From the NCBI RefSeq assembly GCF_004137085.1, contig NZ_QYBC01000009.1, positions 124,001 through 188,000 on the forward strand: a stretch of DNA of 64,000 bases, given 5' to 3'. Position numbers and translations under genes: made by a program. The notes under the pieces were generated by a model, which was given only the letters and a program-made list of their open reading frames with translations, was not told the DNA's origin and searched no databases. This stretch comes from Lichenibacterium ramalinae. GTDB lineage: Bacteria; Pseudomonadota; Alphaproteobacteria; Rhizobiales; Beijerinckiaceae. Positions 5,511-10,037 of the stretch are shown here, in pieces (within the stretch, counting starts at the first letter, position 1; each line of letters begins with the position of its first letter).

Positions 5511-6392
5511 ATGGTCGACATCAGCAAGGCCGGGACCTACGCACTCGGCCATCGCAACGTTCGCCGCCTCGGCTACGGCGCCATGCAGCTCGCGGGGCCG
5601 CGCGTGTTCGGGCCGCCGAAGGACCGGGCGGGCGCGGTCGCGGTGTTGCGCGCCGCGGTCGAGAGCGGGGTCGACCACATCGACACCAGCGACTTCTACG
5701 GCCCGCACGTCACCAACGAGATCATCCGCGAAGCGCTCCACCCTTACCCCGACGACCTCGTCATCGTCACCAAGGTCGGGGCGCGCCGGGGGCCCGACGC
5801 CTCGTGGAACCCGGCCTTCTCGGCCGCGGACCTGACGGGCGCCGTGGAGGACAACCTGCGCAACCTCGGCCGCGACGTGCTGGACGTCGTGAACCTGCGC
5901 CTGATGTTCGACGTCCATGGCCCGGCGGAGGGGTCGGTGGCGGAGCCGCTCACGGCGCTCGCCGAGCTGCAGCGCCGGGGGCTCGTGCGCCACATCGGCC
6001 TCAGCAACGCCACGCACCGGCAGGTGGCGGAGGCGCGCACCCTCGCCGAGATCGCCTGCGTGCAGAACCAGTACAACCTCGCCCACCGCGGCGACGACGC
6101 CCTGGTGGCCGAACTCGCCGCGGCCGGCACCGCCTATGTGCCGTTCTTCCCGCTCGGCGGCTTCACGCCGCTGCAGTCGACGGCGCTGTCCGAGGTCGCG
6201 GGGGAACTCGGCGCCACGGCGATGCAGGTGGCGCTCGCCTGGCTGCTCCAGCGCGCGCCCAACATCCTGCTCATCCCGGGCACGTCCTCGCTGGCGCATC
6301 TGCACGAGAACCTCGCCGCCGCCGCGCTGGACCTGCCCGCGGCCGCACGGGACCGGCTCGACCGGATCGGCAGCGGGGCGCCGCCGGCCTGA
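5511..6392 (+). CDS. Aldo/keto reductase family oxidoreductase
   Basis: A 293-residue NADPH-dependent reductase of the AKR fold. The active-site Asp and Tyr are in HIDTSDFYGP, the Lys in VTKVGAR, and the cofactor-end segments HIGLSNAT and IPGTSSLAHLHEN are present. The usual catalytic His strand reads VVNLRLM, as in the E. coli YdbC-like subgroup, so the family His may be missing. The ATG at 5511 is preceded by GGGAGA. It ends 9 nt before the convergent stop of blh. Substrate unknown; a link to the upstream monooxygenase is possible but unproven. Confidence 0.88.
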   Translation: MVDISKAGTYALGHRNVRRLGYGAMQLAGPRVFGPPKDRAGAVAVLRAAVESGVDHIDTSDFYGPHVTNEIIREALHPYPDDLVIVTKVGARRGPDASWNPAFSAADLTGAVEDNLRNLGRDVLDVVNLRLMFDVHGPAEGSVAEPLTALAELQRRGLVRHIGLSNATHRQVAEARTLAEIACVQNQYNLAHRGDDALVAELAAAGTAYVPFFPLGGFTPLQSTALSEVAGELGATAMQVALAWLLQRAPNILLIPGTSSLAHLHENLAAAALDLPAAARDRLDRIGSGAPPA

Positions 6393-6401
6393 CGGAGCGC
6401 C

Positions 6402-7478
6402 TCACGCCCCCGGCGCGCGGGTCCGCCAGGCCGCGCAGGCTTCCAGCGCCATATGCGGCACCGTCAGGGCCGCGATGACCCGCAAGCTCCAGGTGACGAG
6501 CGTCTCGGTGTCGAGCAGGCCGGCGAGCCCGTCCCAGGAGGCGTAGAGCAGGGCCAGGCACACGAGCGCCGAGGGCACCACCACGGCGGCGACGAGCCGC
6601 GCGGCCGCCGCCGGCCGCGTCGGGTGATGGTCGGCGGCGAGTTCGGCCATGTGGCGGGGGGCATGGACGAGGCAGAAGTAGAGCCCGAACCCCAGCAGCG
6701 GAGGCAGCACCACGGCGGCGAGCGCGACCGCCAGGAGTTCGCCGGCGTCGCGGCCCGCGACCCGGGATCGGGCATCGCCGAGCAGGGGCGGCAGCGTCAC
6801 GAGGGCGAGCGCCACCCCCCAGGGCAGCCCCAGCGGCCAGCGCAGGGCGTCGAGCAGGTGCAGGGCGCCCCCTTCCGTCACGCCGCCCAACGCGGCCACG
6901 AAGGGCGCGACCCCGGCGGGATGGACCAGGAAGATGGGCAGCACCGGCGTCGTGGCCCGGACCGCGAAGGCGAGGGCAGGCCGGGCCGTCGCGGCCCCGG
7001 CCCGCATGTCCCCCCAGCCGAAATGCAGGCCCGAAAGGGCCAGGAAGCCGAGCAGCGTCGCGAGCGGCATCAGCGCCCAGGACGCCATGGCGAGGGCCAC
7101 GAGGGCGAGGTAGCCCGCCAGGAAGGCCGGCAGCCACCAGGCGCCCAGGCCCGGCCGCATCACGCGGTGGGCGACCACGAAGTCGGAGCTGCCGTGCGGC
7201 ACCCCGATCAGCGCGCCGCCGACCAGCAGCAGCGGGCCGCTCGCCGAGCCGAGGGCCGCGGCGGCGCCGGGCGAGGCCAGGGCCAGCAGCGCCGTGCCGG
7301 CCAGCACCGCGACTGCGGCGCCGGCGTGGGCCCGGTCGAGGCCCGGGCGCCAGGCCCTCGCCGCTATCGCCCTGGTGACCGCGGGGCGGGCGCGCCGGGG
7401 CGAGGCTGAGGAAAGGGCGGCCGAAGGGGCGGCGGTGCGCCTCGCCGGCTTCGCTGCCGCATCGGCCGCCATCGCCAT
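6402..7478 (-). CDS. blh: Brp/Blh-type beta-carotene 15,15'-dioxygenase
   Basis: A 358-residue polytopic membrane protein with the four histidine motifs expected for the iron site of Blh/Brp enzymes: GVPHGSSD (H95), LHFGWGD (H152) and HAPRHM (H272, H276), plus VPHM near the C-terminus. The family cleaves beta-carotene into two all-trans retinal molecules in the cytoplasmic membrane. It starts 2 nt after the rhodopsin stop, so the two are almost surely co-transcribed and serve one function: chromophore supply. No carotenoid synthesis genes (crtE, crtB, crtI, crtY) are in the window, so beta-carotene must be made from another locus. The first 50 residues are low-complexity Ala/Arg-rich, so the start is not certain. 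Confidence 0.9.
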   Translation of the reverse strand: MAMAADAAAKPARRTAAPSAALSSASPRRARPAVTRAIAARAWRPGLDRAHAGAAVAVLAGTALLALASPGAAAALGSASGPLLLVGGALIGVPHGSSDFVVAHRVMRPGLGAWWLPAFLAGYLALVALAMASWALMPLATLLGFLALSGLHFGWGDMRAGAATARPALAFAVRATTPVLPIFLVHPAGVAPFVAALGGVTEGGALHLLDALRWPLGLPWGVALALVTLPPLLGDARSRVAGRDAGELLAVALAAVVLPPLLGFGLYFCLVHAPRHMAELAADHHPTRPAAAARLVAAVVVPSALVCLALLYASWDGLAGLLDTETLVTWSLRVIAALTVPHMALEACAAWRTRAPGA

Positions 7479-7480
7479 CG

Positions 7481-8194
7481 TCAGGTCTGCGGCAGGGTCC
7501 GGCCGTCCCGGACCTCCCGGGAGAACTTGGCGTTGGTTTCAGCCGTCGAAAGCATGCCGTAGCCGACCTTCGACACGAGATCGAGCACCGTGAAGCAGAC
7601 GGCCGACAGGGCCGGGCTGATGATCAGCAGCCCGTCGGTGCCGAACAGGAACACCACCGGATAGAGCAGCCACAGCACCGACAGGATGGCGGCGTTGCGC
7701 GTGTAGGTGGTGGCGTTGCCGGCCTTGCGTGCTTCGGCGCGCAGTGGCCACCAGATCACCCAATAGACCGCCAGGAAGGCGCCGCAGCTCATCAGGAACC
7801 AGATCCACTTGTCGGCGCTGCTGGTGGGCGAGTAGCCCGCCTCGAGACCGGTCAGGATCATGTAGACGTCAGCGCCGATCAGGCCCAGCACCAGGCCGAG
7901 CCGCTTGCGCAGGTCGTCCATGGCGGTGAGGGCGAGGCCCGTCAGCAGCAGGGGCGTGGTGATCGACCAGTCGATGTAGCGGGCGTAGAGGAACTCGCGT
8001 CCATGATCGATCGTCACGCTGCCCTGGTTCAGCGCCATCAGCAGGTAGAGCCCGGCAGCGATCATCGGCACGATCGCGTGGATCACGCCATGGGCCTCCT
8101 CGCCGGGCGTCTTGCGACCCATCTGCGCCAGGATCAGCACGGACCCGATCGCCATTCCGACGAAACCGACCCAAAGCCACGCGTTCTCGGTCAT
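7481..8194 (-). CDS. Microbial rhodopsin, predicted light-driven proton pump (DTG motif)
   Basis: A 237-residue seven-helix retinal protein. The Schiff-base lysine is K209 in LDLVSKVGYG, with D205 matching bacteriorhodopsin D212. In helix C, ARYIDWSITTPLLLTG gives D75 (proton acceptor), T79 and G86, so the pump motif is DTG: the cytoplasmic donor position is glycine. L83 sits at the spectral tuning position and predicts green absorption. H39 in helix B aligns with bacteriorhodopsin T46, next to the donor site, and could take over the donor role (inference). The ATG at 8194 starts directly at helix A (MTENAWLWVGF). Followed by blh after 2 nt. Confidence 0.93.
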   Translation of the reverse strand: MTENAWLWVGFVGMAIGSVLILAQMGRKTPGEEAHGVIHAIVPMIAAGLYLLMALNQGSVTIDHGREFLYARYIDWSITTPLLLTGLALTAMDDLRKRLGLVLGLIGADVYMILTGLEAGYSPTSSADKWIWFLMSCGAFLAVYWVIWWPLRAEARKAGNATTYTRNAAILSVLWLLYPVVFLFGTDGLLIISPALSAVCFTVLDLVSKVGYGMLSTAETNAKFSREVRDGRTLPQT

Positions 8195-8414
8195 CTGCGT
8201 CAACACCTTCCAGACTGTGAAACCAACAGAAGGGCGAATGGCGCCGTCATGTTCCGCTCTCCCGACAGTTGAGCATGCGCTAAGTCGTCGCGCTCCTGCG
8301 ACACTGGCGCGAGCCGTCGGGCGAGAGGCGGCTCCGGACGGCCGTGGCCGCGTCTTTGCGCTGCGGCGCAGCATGGCGTATGGGGCCGGGACCGTCTCCA
8401 CATCCCGGGCTCCC

Positions 8415-10037
<1,623 letters not shown>

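Follow-up and report, generated by a model that had tools for sequence, protein, structure and literature searches.

One gene in the 64,000 nt stretch of DNA analysed here (the window) probably encodes a retinal-binding rhodopsin of the DTG/DTS/DTT group that is most likely an outward proton pump, with the helix-B histidine H39 serving as the proton donor or as part of a donating complex. We infer the ion, the direction of transport, the donor role of H39 and the proton relay from sequence, and the label 'proton pump' is used here in the same sense. The protein is a divergent member of a donorless rhodopsin group that has already been described, i.e. the DTG group of Harris et al., in which T46 of bacteriorhodopsin (BR) is replaced by His throughout according to the report on SpaR of Sphingomonas paucimobilis (PMC10154332).

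Gene, key residues and retinal supply

The rhodopsin gene lies at 7481-8194, as the earlier note had it without naming a strand, and both the open reading frame and the Pfam match place the coding sequence on the minus strand. The domain PF01036 (Bac_rhodopsin) spans residues 2-217 with an E value of 5.8e-47, so the reading frame is not due to chance, and together with the retinal lysine K209 in helix G it identifies the protein as a type 1 microbial rhodopsin. The opposite (plus) strand of 7481-8194 is also open, with a sequence unrelated to rhodopsin. The features of the region are as follows.

6402-7478, minus strand: blh, Brp/Blh family beta-carotene 15,15'-dioxygenase, 358 aa (TIGR03753, PF15461)
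7481-8194, minus strand: rhodopsin gene, 237 aa (ATG at 8194, TGA at 7483-7481; PF01036, E 5.8e-47)
7568-7570, minus strand: codon of K209, retinal lysine (BR K216), by alignment
7937-7939, minus strand: codon of G86, which replaces the carboxylic donor (BR D96), by alignment
7970-7972, minus strand: codon of D75, Schiff-base proton acceptor position (BR D85), by alignment
8078-8080, minus strand: codon of H39, candidate donor (BR T46, SpaR H37), by alignment
8090-8092, minus strand: codon of H35 (BR F42, SpaR H33), by alignment and counted from the ATG at 8194
8096-8101, minus strand: codons of E32 and E33, MpR-type glutamate pair, by alignment (signature from PMC10154332)
8206-8211, minus strand: GGAAGG, putative ribosome-binding site, 11 nt ahead of the ATG, spotted by eye

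A sigma-70-like promoter was found nowhere in 6200-8600, where none is expected by chance either. The window's own genome has no PF01036 protein besides this rhodopsin.

The residue register was taken from an alignment to BR and to SpaR (SpaR sequence from the PDB match). The offset to both is unchanging at the positions compared from 33 to 50 and from 72 to 86, SpaR being 1 residue shorter around position 32, which is not in the relevant part of the alignment. The triad D75-T79-G86 named in the earlier note aligns with BR D85/T89/D96, and the equivalence of H39 with BR T46 holds as well, H39 corresponding in addition to SpaR H37. Further equivalences are D205 with BR D212 and D94 with SpaR E92, and the frame of R72, D75, T79, D205 and K209 is intact. 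An AlphaFold2 model built with 29 aligned sequences (mean pLDDT 93.8) has helices at residues 30-54, with H35 and H39 inside, and 70-91. In a Foldseek search with this model the top structure was 8xx8 (TM 0.91, 1.3-1.4 Å); SpaR 8anq gave a TM of 0.86 at 1.6 and 1.9 Å for chains B and C, respectively, and was followed by 6kfq and 7w74 ('DTG rhodopsin from Pseudomonas putida'). The alignment does not displace H39 from the donor cavity, which would have spoken against the proposal of the earlier note; its place at the donor site is assigned by homology to SpaR H37.

The start of blh is found 2 nt downstream of the rhodopsin stop on the same strand, and the assignment of the enzyme rests on 150.7 bits for TIGR03753 (cut-off 95.25) and an E value of 2.2e-40 for PF15461. 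The own genome has one near-full-length lycopene cyclase match, of 302.8 bits and on contig 36, besides seven short ones (10 of 14 control genomes also have matches to this family), and a phytoene-synthase-type match (C36:340111-340899; one of four in the genome) lies about 1.7 kb from the lycopene cyclase match. Considering that blh is beside the rhodopsin gene and that carotenoid-type genes are present in the genome, retinal is plausibly made by the host and used by the window rhodopsin. With respect to dual phototrophy, the own genome is without a match to PF00124 (photosynthetic reaction centre).

This gene neighbourhood is common among the relatives. Of the 50 loci of our genome scan, 43 show a Blh-like match no more than about 300 bases from the rhodopsin, six have none and L074 has a distant one only; as in the window, blh is beside the rhodopsin gene in Pantoea and Sphingomonas relatives, whose annotated plasmids carry rhodopsin and then Brp/Blh. 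In Lichenibacterium minor (L078:1994-3713), blh precedes the rhodopsin gene, an order opposite to that of window positions 6402-8194. The Blh proteins of L078 and the window are 60 % identical and the rhodopsins only 47 %, which suggests that the rhodopsin was either replaced or is evolving faster than Blh.

Upstream of the rhodopsin gene and in divergent orientation lies a gene for an ABC-F ATPase. That the protein is a photosensor with a slow photocycle, and not a pump, is highly improbable: slow cycling is possible in donorless rhodopsins, the photocycle of SpaR being reported to take about 2.3 s at pH 8 (PMC10154332), but the rhodopsin gene is flanked by blh and the ABC-F ATPase gene, and not by a transducer gene.

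Place among donorless rhodopsins

With D75/T79/G86 and H39, the window protein shows the combination by which DTG/DTS donorless rhodopsins are recognized, i.e. Asp-Thr-Gly/Ser/Thr/Ala plus His at BR T46. The SpaR report (PMC10154332) describes mirror proteorhodopsins (SpaR-like) by H32+H33, S121+S199, pumping at acidic pH only and inhibition by millimolar zinc, while giving E32, E33 and D35 as a signature common to 'most' MpR-like members; MpR of Methylobacterium populi is reported there as a Li+/Na+ pump. In the window protein H32+H33 is half present (A34, H35), as is S121+S199 (G120, S197), and the MpR-like mark is incomplete, with E32 and E33 present and His at position 35. The protein mixes the published signatures, i.e. 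MpR-type E32/E33 with SpaR-type H35, neither of them being complete; its function is not readable from the signature.

SpaR resembles the window protein in having no carboxylic donor and in the pairs H39/H37, H35/H33, D94/E92 and S197/S199, but the two are 40.1 % identical, A34 and G120 of the window protein stand against H32 and S121, and E32/E33 are extra in the window protein. PspR of Pseudomonas putida (7w74; group of Harris 2015) shares DTG, His at 35 and 39 and the fold (TM 0.86), but its identity is 39.7 % and it falls among the SpaR-like rows in the tree; identity to BR is 31.5 %. The highest alignment identities (50.4, 50.0 and 49.8 %) all belong to Methylobacterium homologues. These MpR-like DTG/DTS rhodopsins, with 50.4 % identity at most, have E32/E33, G86 and H39 in common with the window protein, whereas its His at 35 contrasts with Asp, the commonest state at this position (30 of 49 scan loci, most Methylobacterium loci among them); MpR itself is absent from the aligned sequences. 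The best PDB sequence match (E 2.6e-59; 49.5 % identity, partial) is 8xx8, the 'Glycilhalorhodopsin' of Salinarimonas soli, which likewise has E32/E33 and G86, but carries Thr in place of D75 and Gln in place of both H35 and H39, its anion transport being deduced from the name only. The literature search returned no paper pairing 8XX8 or Salinarimonas soli with rhodopsin, the word glycylhalorhodopsin was absent, and rhodopsin went unmentioned in the papers on lichen bacteria that were searched.

In a tree of 71 rows the window protein grouped with the Methylobacterium-type sequences (87/86). A second tree of 57 rows, obtained from 75 by removing the duplicates L002 and L004 and thinning at 92 %, recovered with all columns a 35-row group (90/87) made up of the window protein, L048, 8xx8, two acidobacterial and 30 Methylobacterium-type rows. 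Without the helix-B columns, the lines of this group and of the SpaR-like rows formed an unresolved fork, and in the tree lacking residues 30-43 and position 86 the six SpaR-like rows were a clade (100/100) with the window protein outside. Forcing the window protein together with the six SpaR-like rows was not rejected (p-AU 0.175), nor was a group of it and only the 30 Methylobacterium-type rows (p-AU 0.333). A firm placement in either the SpaR-like or the MpR-like clade was dropped, as these tests favour neither decisively.

These relationships bear on whether the protein could be a light-driven Na+/Li+ pump as claimed for MpR, which appears improbable. The roughly 50 % identity to Methylobacterium homologues, the agreement of E32/E33 with the MpR signature and the shared 35-row group would fit such a pump; however, the protein has His where MpR has Asp at position 35, the proton acceptor D75 is present, and the grouping itself is not firm, considering the p-AU value of the SpaR-like alternative.

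Several further rhodopsins came to light among the relatives. Among six genomes of the window's genus, a lysine-bearing rhodopsin is found in the window's genome and three others. Two rhodopsins from genus mates are identical to those of named records: L004 has the same sequence as L078 of Lichenibacterium minor, and L002 the same as L081 from an uncultured alphaproteobacterial MAG. The window thus probably derives from Lichenibacterium or the GTDB counterpart of this genus, and from a bacterium that is probably lichen-associated. In the same genus, one genome (G003) has two rhodopsins (L003 and L012; DTT with H35/H39 and DTE), and in two genomes the sole PF01036 match is without the retinal lysine, which is replaced by Arg in L010 (G005) and Thr in L011 (G001). 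Two loci from Acidobacteriaceae MAGs (L052 and L074; DTS, D35, H39) are placed by the tree in the H39 clade, which is mainly alphaproteobacterial, possibly owing to gene transfer or a MAG binning error. Five loci from five genomes of one genus in the window's taxonomic order (L133, L134, L135, L136 and L138) contain opsin-fold frames of 370-394 aa with Phe, Leu or Arg at the retinal lysine position, a non-DTx helix-C motif in four of the five and a basic C-terminal extension that is hydrophobic at its end; L133 keeps a PF01036 match (E 9.5e-25), and all five look like lysine-less opsins. On viral contigs, one stretch matched a search pattern and no relative was encoded.

Conservation and history of H39 and H35

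All 49 loci examined in the genome scan, i.e. all 50 except the partial L089 (which reads DTS with H35 and H39), fit the helix-C pattern, helix B not having been used. The carboxylate at position 86 is missing in 48 of them, replaced by Gly (29), Ser (10), Thr (6) or Ala (3), and H39 is present in 47 of these 48 donorless loci, the exception being L087, while Thr is found at 39 in the only locus that has Asp at 86. In a mixed set of 71 rows, thinned to 49 sequences at 90 % identity, H39 occurs in 32 of 36 donorless and in none of 13 carboxylate-bearing sequences, the latter being only the nearer part of such rhodopsins, since of 98 fetched loci besides the two window copies, the 68 within a BLAST E value of 1e-5 of the window protein were aligned and the 30 beyond it were not. 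The partial L089 and the lysine-less L011 were excluded from later trees and counts.

The 57-row tree from which residues 30-43 and position 86 were left out requires a single change for the carboxylate, two for H39 and nine for position 35, scored as His, acid or other. The H39 history consists of one gain and one loss, in 8xx8, and the H39 clade is supported by 96/91 without helix-B columns and position 86 and by 99/95 with all columns. A test of donor loss against H39, which is without statistical power because the carboxylate was lost only once, yielded one independent pair with the same H39 state, in which H35 differs in the same direction as the donor. The sole inferred H39 loss, which sits on a long branch, coincides with Thr at the D75 position, and 8xx8, if an anion pump as its name suggests, would not need a proton donor. 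A search for Thr-counterion relatives of 8xx8 matched nine of 397 genomes, one of them the window's own, and TTG was absent in the other eight loci. The plasmid pDAETH-2 of Deinococcus aetherius (L130:1480-2217) has a rhodopsin with a Thr counterion (TTQ by eye) and no helix-B His, which adjoins a hypothetical protein gene and not blh. The pattern of H39, i.e. its retention whether position 86 is Gly, Ser, Thr or Ala and its absence from the Thr-counterion relative, gives indirect support for a role in proton handling.

The actinobacterial MAG sequence L087 and the pair L095/L096, which belong to one genus, have neither the carboxylate nor H39 but keep H35, and branch immediately below the H39 clade; the window protein and all six SpaR-like rows likewise have H35. 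Because two donorless outgroup lineages have H35 without H39, H35 is possibly the older histidine. One may tentatively suppose a two-step origin. H35 would have appeared at the loss of the carboxylate and been able to reprotonate alone, as in L087, L095 and L096, with H39 joining afterwards as a second station; in many Methylobacterium proteins Asp would subsequently have replaced H35, and the Thr-counterion rhodopsin of Salinarimonas would have lost both histidines and the Asp counterion. The window protein would then have a two-histidine relay, with H35 and H39 setting its pH dependence. We regard this scheme as doubtful, since it draws on two outgroup lineages, one of them a long branch, and on position 35, a frequently changing site.

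A proposed proton path and its meaning

The main point of comparison for the function of H39 is SpaR, for which the published report (PMC10154332) gives a structure at 2.8 Å with H37 within hydrogen-bond distance of S84 and a wide cavity joining the cytoplasm to both residues. The M decay of SpaR is described as nearly pH-independent at pH 4.6-6.0, while above about pH 6 it follows bulk pH, which was read as direct reprotonation; H37, of which seven substitutions were assayed in E. coli, was proposed as the internal donor or possibly just part of a donating group, and two possible zinc sites were named, one of them H33-H37 (PMC10154332). The suggestion of the earlier note that H39 is a substitute donor gains from the proposed role of its SpaR counterpart and from the presence of H39 in nearly all donorless relatives, but it is not specific to the window protein, as a histidine donor has already been put forward for the group, both in Harris 2015, as cited, and in the 2023 SpaR paper (PMC10154332).

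For the window protein, we propose that light would move the Schiff-base proton to D75 and that, with Gly at position 86, the Schiff base would be reprotonated from the cytoplasm via a cavity lined with the helix-B histidines. H39 would be the immediate donor or one part of a donating complex, to which H35, with E32/E33 and perhaps D94, may relay protons. The retinal would be supplied through the adjacent blh, and the beta-carotene by genes elsewhere in the genome.

It is also conceivable, though rather unlikely, that an outward proton pump takes up protons directly, the small residue at position 86 leaving a wide hydrated cavity through which bulk water reprotonates the Schiff base, with H39 only gating or hydrating it. 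The authors of the PspR structure (7w74) reportedly favour such direct uptake, and L087, L095 and L096 keep the Asp, the retinal lysine and all other frame residues despite having neither donor nor H39. The wide cavity of SpaR and its M decay at higher pH point in the same direction, but the pH independence of this decay at low pH does not, and neither does the strong conservation of H39 over four different residues at position 86.

Donorless rhodopsins are a test case for the way in which the Schiff base of a light-driven pump regains its proton, and the sequences with H35 only (L087, L095 and L096) are a natural control for the role of H39. The window protein, which we read as a probable proton pump in which H39 would give up the proton alone or within a donating group, joins residues by which the published scheme distinguishes between proton pumps and a claimed sodium pump. 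Because of this mixture, an assay of the window protein would test that scheme.
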